Virus record (IMG/VR): IMGVR_UViG_3300018476_000036
Location: 1 to 27,687 of that record
DNA: 27,687 nt
Strand: one strand, 5' to 3'
DNA from: a virus
The notes beneath the pieces are model-generated. The model was not told where the DNA came from. It did not search any database and worked only from the letters and a program-made list of their open reading frames with translations. The translations under genes were made by a program, and so were the position numbers. Positions 9,859 to 27,687 of this stretch are shown here, in pieces (positions within the stretch are counted from its first letter, which is position 1; every line of letters starts with the position of its first letter).

Positions 9859-10149
9859 ATGTTAGCCACGGCCATGACACTGGACACTGAAAGGGGGCGC
9901 GCCATCGCGGTGGCGGCGCGGATCAACGCAGCGGCAGCGGAAGCGCTGGCGGCGCGGGTATCCGTGAACCTGCTGGAACAGCAGGTGCTGGCGGCACGCG
10001 CCCGCGCGGACCGGCTGGCGAAGCGGCTGGCGCGCATCGAAGGCTACGCCCGCCGCGCGATGCACCACACGGGCTGCGAACACGCGCGCGCGGCGCTGGG
10101 TGACATCGTAGTCACGGCGCGCGAACGCGACGCGCCCGCGCTGGTCTAG
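9859..10149 (+). CDS. Small alanine-rich coiled-coil protein
   Basis: A 96-residue, alanine- and arginine-rich protein with almost continuous helix at about residues 10-68 (ARINAAAAEALAARVSVNLL ... ADRLAKRLARIEG), likely a coiled coil. C73 and the pair H68/H69 lie near the C-terminus. The SD is weak (GGA and GAG before ATG 9859); a second ATG at 9874 is possible. Its stop codon TAG shares the tetranucleotide CTAG with the stop of the convergent lipoprotein gene. It could be a spanin-like or regulatory protein; function unknown. Confidence 0.6.
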   Translation: MLATAMTLDTERGRAIAVAARINAAAAEALAARVSVNLLEQQVLAARARADRLAKRLARIEGYARRAMHHTGCEHARAALGDIVVTARERDAPALV

Positions 10150-21438: not shown

Positions 21439-22266
21439 CTAGTTGGTGACTGCATTGCGCAGCGGGTAGAACGCCACGCGAATGGCGGGCATGCGGCCCC
21501 TGTGTTTCTTCACACGTGAGGAGCTAGCGCCCATCGCGTCTTCTATAAACACGGCGGTGATGGCCACACCGGGCAGCCGTCGCCCGCGCATCGCATTCGC
21601 AGCGGTGGCCATGAACCCCTGCTGGCGCCGGTTGCGTTTCTCTTGCTTGCGCTGCGACCAGTGCACACGGGACCTGCGGTTAGTGGTTGCCTTGTGTTGG
21701 CCATGCTTCCCCAGCCAGTTCGCGAACCACGCATAGTCCGCTGGATACTTCCTGTCCGGCACTAGATAGAGCACGTCATAAACGCCAATCCCGCTGGTCA
21801 CAGAACCGCCCAGATATTCCGGGCCACCGCTCCCATCCAGCTGCCGGTCCCGCACCACGTACCACACCCAGTCGCGTTCCAGCCGTTTCATTTTCGAATT
21901 GGGGAAGCGCTGATGAATGGCGCTAGTTAGGATGGGGCGCAGGGTATTGGCCACCTTCGCCAGTTCGTCTGCCTGATACAGGATGCGCACGGATGTGCGC
22001 GCCATATCAATGCTGCCCGGTGCGAAGCCACGGCGCTGGTTCCCGGTCTTCCCGGTGGTGCCGTTCACTTCGGTGATATGAAACTTTGGATTGCCCGCCT
22101 TAACTATTTCGTCATGGCCACGGCGCGCGGTTTCCTGCACCCATGATTTTGCCTGTTCGTGCCAGAATTCCTGATCGTCCAGAATGAACTGCTGCAGGTC
22201 AGTGGCGTTTGTGGCGCGGCGCTGCGGGGGAATCTTGCTTACCTGCACGTTTGGAAGATTCAGCAT
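21439..22266 (-). CDS. Unknown basic protein between G/GT and tape measure
   Basis: A 275-residue basic protein, MLNLPNVQVSKIPPQRRATN.... It has a helical first part (DLQQFILDDQEFWHEQAKSW), a middle with RFPNSKMKRLERDWVWYVVR, and an extremely basic stretch (TTNRRSRVHWSQRKQEKRNR). Lambda-like phages usually have nothing between GT and the tape measure, so the position is unusual. It overlaps the 3' end of the GT frame and has AGGGA about 9 bases before ATG 22266. A tail completion or assembly factor is possible; function unknown. Confidence 0.75.
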   Translation of the reverse strand: MLNLPNVQVSKIPPQRRATNATDLQQFILDDQEFWHEQAKSWVQETARRGHDEIVKAGNPKFHITEVNGTTGKTGNQRRGFAPGSIDMARTSVRILYQADELAKVANTLRPILTSAIHQRFPNSKMKRLERDWVWYVVRDRQLDGSGGPEYLGGSVTSGIGVYDVLYLVPDRKYPADYAWFANWLGKHGQHKATTNRRSRVHWSQRKQEKRNRRQQGFMATAANAMRGRRLPGVAITAVFIEDAMGASSSRVKKHRGRMPAIRVAFYPLRNAVTN

Positions 22267-22941
22267 TGAGGTAGTCCCTATCTATTGCCTGCACTAATTC
22301 CACGAACGCTTCCAAGTCAGGCACCCGGTACCGGTCACACCATGCAGATATCGCGCGCCAGTAAATCGGCCCGATGAATTCGCTGGCCACCGCCCGTTCC
22401 CCTGACAGGTCCATGAATGCACGCATGGCCAGTGTCTGCCATTCCGTTAGCGGCGGTGGCGCCGCACTGATGGACGTGCGGATACCACGCGCCGCCAGCG
22501 CTTCTAACTGTTCGCGGTAGGCGCCTGCGCCGGTTCGCCATCGCGCGTGCCTTTTACCGCTTCGACATCCTCCTTAGCCTGCGTCACCGCGTAGTTAGCG
22601 CGGTTCATGGCGAAGCGGTTCAGGTCTTCCCAGATTTCATTCGCGTAGTTCAGCAGCGCCACGCACGCGTCCGGGCTGTACGGGATGGGGTCGCCGTGAA
22701 TGTCCACGATGCCCACCCAGCCCACCACCAGCAGGCGTGCGAATAGCGCCTGCACGGCTGCCGTATCCTTCGTGTCCACCGTTGCGAATTGCGCCTGTAT
22801 CTCGCGGTCATACAAGTTCGCGCGCCTAACTATCAGCGCGCGACCCTTGCCTAAATCGAATGGCACACCATTGCGGCATTTCTCCGGATCACTGCGCCAT
22901 TCATCCAGCCCGCCGAACTGATAGCCGCCACCGTTGTTCAT
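22199..22941 (-). CDS. Tail assembly chaperone GT, predicted -1 frameshift product
   Basis: The G frame (22504-22941) is followed by a second frame, -1 relative to it, open from about base 22573 to the stop at 22199. That frame reads REQLEALAARGIRTSISAAP, then LTEWQTLAMRAFMDLSGERA, and has no start codon with an SD before its conserved-looking part, so it must be reached by frameshifting, as in lambda G/GT. With slippage at A-AAA-GGC (22555-22549) the fusion would have 130 G residues plus 117 new ones, 247 in total. GT chaperones bind the tape measure and recruit tail-tube subunits. An internal start at ATG 22426 is the alternative. Confidence 0.72.
22504..22941 (-). CDS. Tail assembly chaperone G
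   Basis: A 145-residue protein, MNNGGGYQFGGLDEWRSDPE ..., with a beta/alpha N-terminal half and helical C-terminal half (ACVALLNYANEIWEDLNRFA). Place right after the tail-tube gene (ATGA overlap) and just before a -1 open frame identifies it as the short form of the tail chaperone pair. The main product ends at TAG 22504; a minority would shift into the GT frame. Confidence 0.8.
   Translation of the reverse strand: MNNGGGYQFGGLDEWRSDPEKCRNGVPFDLGKGRALIVRRANLYDREIQAQFATVDTKDTAAVQALFARLLVVGWVGIVDIHGDPIPYSPDACVALLNYANEIWEDLNRFAMNRANYAVTQAKEDVEAVKGTRDGEPAQAPTANS
22549..22575 (-). other. Predicted -1 ribosomal frameshift site with SD-like stimulator
   Basis: On the minus strand AAGGAGG (22575-22569) is followed 13 bases later by AAAA-GGC (22555-22549). 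The zero-frame codons are GTA AAA GGC; the lysine tRNA can re-pair on AAA one base back. An internal SD 10-14 bases before a slippery A-run stimulates -1 shifting in E. coli dnaX. The -1 frame is closed upstream by TAA at about 22576, so the shift must occur in this interval. Confidence 0.6.
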
Positions 22942-24789: not shown

Positions 24790-25515
24790 TTAGACCCCCG
24801 TGACCACACGCTGGCGGTAGGGTTCCAGAATCGCAATCACGCCCTGCAGTTCCGGGGGCCATGGCTTGCCGCCGAATTCCGCAGCGTCCACACCGGGTGT
24901 CCCATACATGACACTGGAACCGTCCACCGCAATCTGGGTGATGGGTCCCTGCGTGGACATGTCCGCCGTGTTCCCGGTGTCACCGGTCATGCGCCAGCGT
25001 GCGAAGAACGCACGCAAGATGGCGTCCATTAAATCGGCGGGCCATGCGTCATCTGCGTATCCGCCCGAATAGTCCACGCTGATAATGGGGTCATGCGAAC
25101 AGCACGCCCACGGCGCGCCGTGCCCGCAGCCAAAGCCCCATTCCAGAATCCCGGACGCAGCGAACAGGCGCCAGCCGGTGACGGGCTGGCCATCTACCGT
25201 GACGCTGCGGACTTCGCTGACGGGGAACCGATACAGCAGCAGGCGCGGGTTACGACTATCTACCGGTTCGAACGGCTGGACTTCCGCGCCGAACACCACA
25301 CCGCGCCCCAGATACCGTTCCACTATGGCGATGGTCGCGGCCATGGTGTCCGTGATTTCATCGTCCAGCGATGTGTCCCCGGGCGGGATGCCTAACATGT
25401 CTTTGATTTCGTCCAGCGTGGGCATGGTCGCGCCACGTGATCCAGCGCCAGCGTCCAGCTGGTCCCGGATGCGCTGCGTAATCGGGCGCGGGTCAGCTGC
25501 GGCGGGGCCGGTCAT
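24790..25515 (-). CDS. Head-tail connector (adaptor) protein
   Basis: A 241-residue protein. TLDEIKDMLGIPPGDTSLDD, EITDTMAATIAIVERYLGRG (about 33-73) is the helical core of HK97 gp6-like adaptors, followed by an insertion with LLYRFPVSEVRSVTVDGQPV and PADLMDAILRAFFARWRMTG. It binds the portal ring. ATG 25515 overlaps the preceding stop as ATGA; a second ATG (MPTLDEIK) would shorten it by 30 residues. Confidence 0.82.
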   Translation of the reverse strand: MTGPAAADPRPITQRIRDQLDAGAGSRGATMPTLDEIKDMLGIPPGDTSLDDEITDTMAATIAIVERYLGRGVVFGAEVQPFEPVDSRNPRLLLYRFPVSEVRSVTVDGQPVTGWRLFAASGILEWGFGCGHGAPWACCSHDPIISVDYSGGYADDAWPADLMDAILRAFFARWRMTGDTGNTADMSTQGPITQIAVDGSSVMYGTPGVDAAEFGGKPWPPELQGVIAILEPYRQRVVTGV

Positions 25516-26600
25516 GCCGTCACCCCGTTAGCCTTTCCCTTCGTGGGACGCGGCGGCGCCACGCCCGGTGGGCCCGGTTCACCGCGCGGACCTGCGGGCC
25601 CGGGCGCGCCGTCTTTGCCATCGCGCCCGGACTTGACCGCCAGCTGCCAGTGGCGCGCCGCTTCGTCCGTGCCCGGGCGGGACGCGGTGACGTGCACCGC
25701 CTTGCACATCCACATGCAGCCGTTAGCGGTCACCGCATCGTTCAGGTGGTAGGTAGTGGCGTGGTCATACACGCCCGCGTAGCGGAACGGACGCAAGCCC
25801 GTGGCCACGCGGTGTTCGCGCCCGCTGGCGTGGCGGTAGATAGCCAGCTGATACCCGCGTTCATCGTATTCATACGTGGCCAGTTCGTGGCCATCGAACA
25901 TCAGCGCATAGCCATCCACGCCCGTGCCCGGTTCCGCGCTGGTGTCCTGATTCGCAAACCACAATCCGCCCCGGTGCTGCACCACGCTGCCGCGCTGGAA
26001 CTGCTGGTCCGCCTTCCAGTGCACGGGCTGCACCATGGTGGCGTCGCGCCCGGGTGGTCCGGGTGGCCCCGCTGGTCCGACATGCGAAGGAATGCCAGCT
26101 ACAGCAGTGGCCACCCGTTCCACAATTGATTCGCGCAGCGCGTCCACCTGCCGCTGCCAGCCGTCCGTCAGTGCATCGCACTGGGCAATGCCACGCGTGG
26201 CAAAGTCCGCCTGCATGTCCGTGATGCGTTCCTGCACGCGGTCTTCCACGCGGTCCAGCGTGTCCTGCACTTTCGCCAGCGCGGGCGTCACCGTCTGCGC
26301 CACGCGCGCGTCCACCTGCTGGGCCACGGTCGCGGCGATCCCGTCAGCGCGCTGCTGCCAGCTGCTGGTCAGCCCTTCCTGCAGCGCCTGCGTGCGCGCC
26401 GCGAAGTCCGCCTGCAGGTCCGTGATGTTTTCCACCCGGATGTCCACACCCGCCAGCGCGTGGTCTAACTTCAGTAGCGCGGGCGTGATGGTGGCGGCCA
26501 CCACCGCTTCCACCTGCGTGGCCACCATGCGGGGCAACGCTTCGCGCACCGCGTCCACCACTGCGTCCGTGACCAGTTCCACCAGCTGCTGGGTGTTCAT
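25512..26600 (-). CDS. Coiled-coil, collagen-like structural protein
   Basis: A 362-residue protein. Residues 1-168 are a long helical coiled coil containing a duplication (39-104 and 105-168). Residues 175-186 are collagen-like (GPAGPPGPPGRD). Residues 191-325 hold two ~50-residue motifs of the type W/Y...Y..GD.V..G..W (VHWKADQQFQRGSVVQHRGG and AGVYDHATTYHLNDAVTANG), common in phage surface proteins and reminiscent of small carbohydrate-binding modules. A second collagen stretch follows (GRDGKDGAPGPAGPRGEPGP). It could be a head fibre or other decoration. It occupies the slot between portal and connector where protease and capsid genes usually lie. Confidence 0.75.
   Translation of the reverse strand: MNTQQLVELVTDAVVDAVREALPRMVATQVEAVVAATITPALLKLDHALAGVDIRVENITDLQADFAARTQALQEGLTSSWQQRADGIAATVAQQVDARVAQTVTPALAKVQDTLDRVEDRVQERITDMQADFATRGIAQCDALTDGWQRQVDALRESIVERVATAVAGIPSHVGPAGPPGPPGRDATMVQPVHWKADQQFQRGSVVQHRGGLWFANQDTSAEPGTGVDGYALMFDGHELATYEYDERGYQLAIYRHASGREHRVATGLRPFRYAGVYDHATTYHLNDAVTANGCMWMCKAVHVTASRPGTDEAARHWQLAVKSGRDGKDGAPGPAGPRGEPGPPGVAPPRPTKGKANGVTA
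26097..26486 (-). repeat. Internal duplication in the coiled-coil protein
   Basis: Residues 39-104 and 105-168 align: both start TPAL.K, then RV..ITD.QADFA.R (DIRVENITDLQADFAAR and EDRVQERITDMQADFATR), a WQ pair and a V-rich helix. Each unit is about 64-66 residues. A tandem duplication lengthening a coiled coil explains this. Confidence 0.75.
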
Positions 26601-27687
26601 GCGGCTAGCCTCACGCGCGCCCGCGCGCGCGTTGTGACACGCAGGCGCAGGGCGTTTAGTTCTTCGTCCGCGAGTTCTTCCGCGTCCGGGTCATCCGCTT
26701 CCGGGTCCGGTTCGTCCGGGTCCGTGGGCGGGGGCGGTTCAGCAGTGGGCGCCGCCGTGACCGGCTGGCCTGCCATGGATAGCGGGCGGTACTGCGCCTG
26801 CACTAGCGGTTCGTCCCCGCCTTCCTTCGGTTCCAGTTCTTCCAGCTTGCGGGCTTCGTTGATAGTTAGGACACCGGACTGGATGCCCGTCTGGTACGCG
26901 GCCATGCGCGCGTCCAGTTCCATGCGCAGCATCGCGGCTAAATCGAATTCGCAGAACGTGTTCCCGGTCAGGCCGAAAGCCTGATCTATCCGGGCTTCGA
27001 TACTTTCAATGTGATATTGCAGCGTCTGGCTGTAGTAGTTGCGCGCCAGCGTTTCCGCGTTCTTAAACGAAACTTTGCTGGCGTCCGTCAGCATGTAGGT
27101 AGGCACGCGGAAACAGCGGGCCACATCTTCCACGCTCCACCGCAGCTGTTCGATTAGCTGCGCGTCCGCCGCGCTGATGGTCAGCGGTTCCCATTTCATG
27201 CCTTCGCCTAGCACGGCGGTGCGGCCCATCTGGCCGCCTTTGAAATTCTGGTCCCATTCCGTTTTCAAACGGTTCGCCAGTTCCTGCGATATCTTGCCCG
27301 GGCTTGTTAGGACCCCGGACGCGCGGGACATGTTTGCGAAGAACGCGAACGAATTCTGCTGAATGGTCTGGCCCGTCATCGCGGACACGCCCGCCGCGTA
27401 CAGCGGAGTCAGCCCCACTAGCGGATGGTTCATTGTCAGCAGCCGGTGGTGCAGGATGTCCCGCGCGGGGATCACATCCGTGGCCAGCAGTTCCGCCAGC
27501 CGTTCCTGTCCGATGCGATAGAACACACTGCCGTCATCGGACAGCAGCACGCGCACCTGTCGCGGGTCCAGTATGTGCATGGACCTGATGATGTTGTTAG
27601 GGTCCCGCTGCAGGAACACGTAGACGTTTCCATTGAACAGCGCGGACGCCATGAACTGGCCCCAGAAATCCACGCGGGTCTGGTAGC
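26597..27687 (-). CDS. Portal protein (HK97 family), N-terminus cut by window edge
   Basis: The visible 362 residues lack the N-terminus; the frame continues past base 27687 (YQTRVDFWGQFMASALFNGN ...). Core portal features are present: NVYVFLQRDPNNIIRSMHIL, VIPARDILHHRLLTMNHPLV, GLTPLYAAGVSAMTGQTIQQ, RASGVLTSPGKISQELANRL, and GLTGNTFCEFDLAAMLRMEL. This is the dodecameric ring for DNA packaging and ejection. The C-terminus has an acidic proline-rich stretch (EPPPPTDPDEPDPEADDPDA) followed by a basic tail. ATGA overlap with the next gene. Confidence 0.93.
   Translation of the reverse strand, partial: YQTRVDFWGQFMASALFNGNVYVFLQRDPNNIIRSMHILDPRQVRVLLSDDGSVFYRIGQERLAELLATDVIPARDILHHRLLTMNHPLVGLTPLYAAGVSAMTGQTIQQNSFAFFANMSRASGVLTSPGKISQELANRLKTEWDQNFKGGQMGRTAVLGEGMKWEPLTISAADAQLIEQLRWSVEDVARCFRVPTYMLTDASKVSFKNAETLARNYYSQTLQYHIESIEARIDQAFGLTGNTFCEFDLAAMLRMELDARMAAYQTGIQSGVLTINEARKLEELEPKEGGDEPLVQAQYRPLSMAGQPVTAAPTAEPPPPTDPDEPDPEADDPDAEELADEELNALRLRVTTRARARVRLAA

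Follow-up and report, generated by a model that had tools for sequence, protein, structure and literature searches.

A predicted −1 frameshift on an A_AAA tetramer, probably Shine–Dalgarno-assisted in one subclade, in the tail assembly chaperone genes of a phage clade

Organization of the tail module and gene G

The window, by which we mean the whole 27.7 kb virus record analyzed here (G+C 63%), carries on its minus strand a tail module comprising portal, adaptor and terminator genes, the tail tube gene (PF18906), the chaperone frames G and T, one further ORF, the tape measure gene (PF20155) and tail tip genes. Gene G (22941–22504, minus strand), which follows the tail tube gene, begins with ATG, ends with TAG and encodes the 145-residue short form of the tail assembly chaperone, matching phrog_313 (E 6e-16) and phrog_8233. 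Together, G and T constitute two overlapping chaperone-domain frames placed between the tail tube and tape measure genes.

The portal region (25512–27685, minus strand) is occupied by two ORFs that overlap by 4 nt; positions 106–399 of the 859-position portal profile phrog_2271 match the first, and positions 677–857 match the second, which also contains collagen-like and CBM_5_12-like stretches. The ORF that separates T from the tape measure gene (21439–22266, minus strand, 275 residues) shares 68 nt with the end of T, read in a different frame. It matches no PHROG, and nothing in Pfam above cutoff; ORFs of similar appearance occupy the corresponding position in lineages L012 and L015. Additionally, a 25-base stretch at 9940–9964 (plus strand) is 96% identical to the G stop region at 22479–22504 (minus strand); the two places are unrelated, and the near-repeat is probably a coincidence of Ala-rich coding composition.

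The T frame lacks a start of its own

The T region (22573–22199, minus strand) extends for 124 codons in the −1 frame relative to G. It matches PF23812 (Phage_TAC_18) with 33.4 bits against a cutoff of 27 and the tail chaperonin PHROG phrog_3817 with an E value of 6e-13, and because of these Pfam and tail-chaperone PHROG matches the frame lies beyond chance. Moreover, phrog_8233 (271 positions) is a single profile that covers both halves, its positions 67–131 matching G and 178–251 matching T. Searched by fold, the model of T (mean pLDDT 75) has no significant match in the PDB; in BFVD it retrieves tape measure proteins and tail assembly chaperones, several of them 260–277 residues long, approximately the length of a G–T fusion.

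The first ATG, GTG or TTG of the frame is the ATG at 22426, corresponding to residue 44 counted from the slip. This bears out the initial annotation, which had described a startless −1 frame of more than 100 codons behind G. The ATG is not conserved, the aligned residues including L, Q and F, and it falls within a predicted helix spanning residues 38–53 of the T model. Across all 12 lineages that keep the T frame, the earliest potential start never precedes residue 17 from the slip. A separate start near 22426, which the initial annotation had named as a finding that would count against a frameshift, is absent from the homologues.

A twelve-lineage clade shares the G/T arrangement

Scans of viral-metagenome contigs recovered eleven further lineages that form one clade with the window (support 100/100), within which the backbone of the tree is unresolved. 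A nucleotide search of phage records and a plasmid protein search returned no match, and genome contigs contained no relatives, so that neither a host nor a cultured close relative was found. Relative to G, the T frame is −1 in 12/12 lineages. The comparison with related G/GT pairs, which the initial annotation had proposed, upholds both the −1 arrangement and the slip position.

The G-frame codons at the slip are GCG GTA AAA GGC in the window, GCG TTA AAA CAT in L016, GCT TTA AAA GGT in L017, GCG TTA AAA GGT in L018, GGC GTA AAA GCC in L019, CAG GTA AAA CTG in L020, GCG GTA AAA GCG in L022, GCG GTA AAA ACG in L023, AGT TTA AAA GGT in L024, GCG GTA AAA CAT in L038, GCC GTA AAA TAG in L039 and AAT GTA AAA ACC in L040. 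A canonical heptamer, TTTAAAA, arises only in L017 and L024; L017 is nested among non-heptamer lineages, so its heptamer looks derived. The usual, though not strictly defining, X_XXY_YYZ motif is missing from the other 10 of the 12 members, among them the window, where the equivalent positions read GGTAAAA. The departure from the usual lambda heptamer that had been noticed in this one phage is accordingly a trait of the clade.

Beyond the clade, a canonical −1 heptamer, either AAAAAAN or GGGAAAN, is present where G and T overlap in 24 of 25 more distant loci, some of which are near-duplicates of each other; in most it lies no more than 12 nt from the stop of G. The sole distant locus without one is L072, whose G ends near 1092 with GTG GGG GAA TCC TAA. 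A sister group (L027, L043, L044 and L045) has ATA AAA AAA, that is, the canonical A_AAA_AAA; here AAGGA to AAGGAGG, strongest in L044, stands a few nucleotides before the A run, at a spacing unlike that of −1 stimulators.

The predicted slip lies at a conserved codon pair

The slip tetramer A_AAA occupies 22552–22555 (minus strand) within the G-frame codons GTA AAA and allows −1 re-pairing of a single tRNA; TAAAA is invariant in the 12 lineages. In the pooled loci GTA accounts for 8% of the codons for Val, TTA for 8% of those for Leu and AAA for 41% of those for Lys, and the product of chances for the invariance of (G/T)TA AAA, calculated from the residues and the codon usage of each locus, is ~10^-17, a value that serves as an indication only because the lineages share kinship.

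Two kinds of boundary delimit the site. The T frame opens 2 codons before the tetramer in L038 and 3 codons before it in L017 and L022, while G stops immediately after AAA in L039; the L038 opening and the L039 stop pin the shift to the (G/T)TA-AAA pair, provided that the site is homologous, as the ungapped slip-site alignment of the clade suggests. The homologues thereby back the position of A-AAA-GGC, which had been singled out as the one good slippage point in the G/T overlap (about 22504–22573). Furthermore, among the G residues that do not vary in the five closest lineages, the codon is identical in 8/8 cases after the slip, in the dual-coded overlap (22504–22551, minus strand), versus 8/42 before it (Fisher p 2.4e-5), the pattern to be expected if both frames are translated.

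The base ahead of (G/T)TA differs among lineages, yielding GGTAAAA, CGTAAAA, TGTAAAA and GTTAAAA across the clade, so re-pairing of a second tRNA in the P site is not conserved. Judged from these sites, the common denominator is one tRNA-Lys on A_AAA. A_AA.A is a known weak −1 tetramer motif, common in IS1/IS3 elements (PMC4066793). Of the six tetramers that were active in E. coli it gave the least shifting; the six spanned 0.26 to 5.6% with an IS3 pseudoknot, and the constructs bore that pseudoknot rather than an SD (PMC4066793), so frameshift efficiency at the present site may be low.

An internal Shine–Dalgarno-like element precedes the slip tetramer

A perfect AAGGAGG (22569–22575, minus strand) lies 13 nt before the slip tetramer and 10 nt before the start of GGTAAAA, with a predicted anti-SD duplex of −12.0 kcal/mol; the reported spacing for −1 stimulatory SDs is 9–14 nt (PMC5009743). 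The initial coordinates all hold: AAGGAGG at 22575–22569, A_AAA_GGC from 22555, the spacing of 13 nt and a fusion of 247 residues. In-frame A_AAA occurs at just 7 sites in the 15 gene ORFs of the window, and only this one has a strong SD at the right distance (the next strongest reaches −7.1 kcal/mol). Equally strong elements appear in 0.5–0.9% of synonymous shuffles of the window.

AGGAGG or GGAGG is found at the same place in the window, L016–L019 and L038, which form a supported six-lineage subclade; perfect or near-perfect SDs are confined to this subclade and partly coincide with conserved Glu-Asp codons. In most of the subclade relatives, synonymous shuffles match the SD strength in ~10–35% of cases (single-locus p 0.1–0.35). 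Summed over the 12 lineages, SD strength amounts to −100.2 versus −62.0 ± 8.7 in synonymous shuffles, with 0/2000 shuffles as strong, and it is greater at 10 non-heptamer than at 27 heptamer sites (Mann–Whitney p 0.004, uncorrected for relatedness). Because it is conserved only in the six-lineage subclade, we regard the SD as an accessory feature with an inferred stimulatory role; AAGGAGG likely stimulates the predicted shift in the window.

Downstream of the slip, single-sequence folding of the window reveals no 3′ stem beyond shuffles (z +1.3), and the clade alignment, with a weak consensus and a covariation term of −0.21, supports no conserved stem; both analyses addressed stem-loops. The original term 'dnaX-like' is apt for the perfect AAGGAGG and its spacing alone: the window lacks the A_AAA_AAG heptamer, and a 3′ stem-loop is not supported.

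Proposed mechanism and alternative explanations

We have high confidence, on sequence grounds, in a programmed −1 frameshift of the lambda G/GT kind, based on a single tRNA-Lys slip on A_AAA and probably SD-assisted. Most ribosomes would stop at 22504 and release G, whereas a minority would slip back one base, as tRNA-Lys shifts from AAA in GCG GTA AAA GGC to the AAA that overlaps it, and read the T frame on to 22199. The slip would need the A_AAA tetramer alone, since one tRNA re-pairs and the preceding Val/Leu tRNA would re-pair poorly, and the elongating ribosome would pair with AAGGAGG through the tail of its 16S rRNA, probably raising the frequency of the event. The predicted GT fusion (22199–22941, minus strand; 247 residues, 27.7 kDa as computed) has, like phrog_8233, G followed by T. 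Its predicted junction is AVK / RHARW; the Glu-C peptide across the slip would be AVKRHARWRTGAGAYRE, trypsin cutting too finely there. By analogy with lambda, G would bind the tape measure protein and the T domain would recruit the tail tube subunit.

Among the alternatives, the one to be taken most seriously, although we consider it unlikely, accepts the frameshift and treats AAGGAGG as a by-product of Lys/Gln-Glu-Asp codons that stimulates nothing, A_AAA alone or with a downstream element being sufficient. L023 and other clade members do keep GTA AAA without a good SD, and amino acid constraint makes an SD-like sequence fairly likely at this place; against this, joint SD strength exceeds the synonymous null, the SD of the window has p 0.005–0.0085, and tetramers show hardly any shifting in E. 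coli when no stimulator is present (PMC4066793). A shift of two tRNAs in the manner of a heptamer, on G_GTA_AAA and with imperfect re-pairing in the P site, is rather improbable. The motif name 'twoonefour' is among those that PRFect gives as recurring at annotated phage shifts, and GGTAAAA would seem to fit that name, but the base that opens the heptamer may be G, C or T from one clade member to another, which leaves P-site re-pairing without conservation.

That T is a separate protein, produced from an independent or re-initiated start at ATG 22426 or a non-standard codon, is very unlikely. The ATG is present, and several relatives have a GTG at residues 25–27; initiation at the non-conserved ATG would nevertheless cut the predicted helix and lose the conserved residues 1–43, and T-frame conservation begins right at the slip, together with dual-coding constraint. 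Transcriptional slippage or a sequencing indel would give an apparent fusion of the same appearance, yet we give this reading hardly any credence: the A run has just four bases, which is short for polymerase slippage, and the same G/T frame relation in 12 lineages excludes an indel error.

Comparison with known systems

The tetramer-based frameshift proposed here belongs to a known kind, the lambda G/GT frameshift, of which the tetramer slip with an SD is an uncommon variant. It shares with lambda the gene order tail tube, G, T and tape measure, the −1 direction, the startless T and a shift near the end of G; it differs in having A_AAA behind an SD where lambda-type sites use an X_XXY_YYZ heptamer, and in the extra ORF that follows T ahead of the tape measure gene. 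E. coli dnaX resembles it in the upstream SD at a stimulatory distance and the tRNA-Lys slip, but combines A_AAA_AAG with a 3′ stem-loop and shifts to a shorter product, whereas in the window the predicted slip is on a tetramer, no stem is supported and the predicted product is longer. IS1/IS3-family transposase shifts likewise use single-tRNA Z_ZZN tetramers including A_AA.A (PMC4066793), and IS frameshifts commonly have an SD as stimulator (PMC5009743), although these shifts make transposase fusions and not a tail chaperone.

Stenotrophomonas phage AXL_3 and Pseudoxanthomonas phage PW916 show homology to the tail chaperone T, and Pseudomonas phage BL5 to the tail chaperone G, each at the same position and with the same −1 relation; all three carry a canonical GGGAAAC or AAAAAAC near the G stop, which the window lacks. 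A literature search, which did not cover Xu et al. 2004, brought up no tail chaperone described as using an SD-stimulated tetramer shift.

Implications for tail chaperone frameshifting

We see about an even chance that this siphophage clade replaced the heptamer by a conserved (G/U)UA_AAA single-tRNA-Lys slip, with the internal SD as the main stimulator setting the G:GT ratio in one subclade. Tail chaperone frameshifts are usually recognized by their slippery heptamer. In this clade a conserved predicted shift has persisted on a tetramer, and annotation that relies on heptamers would therefore miss it. Moreover, the members of the clade constitute a natural series at the same homologous codon pair, with and without an SD and with and without a heptamer, that would serve to test how far an SD replaces the second slipping tRNA.
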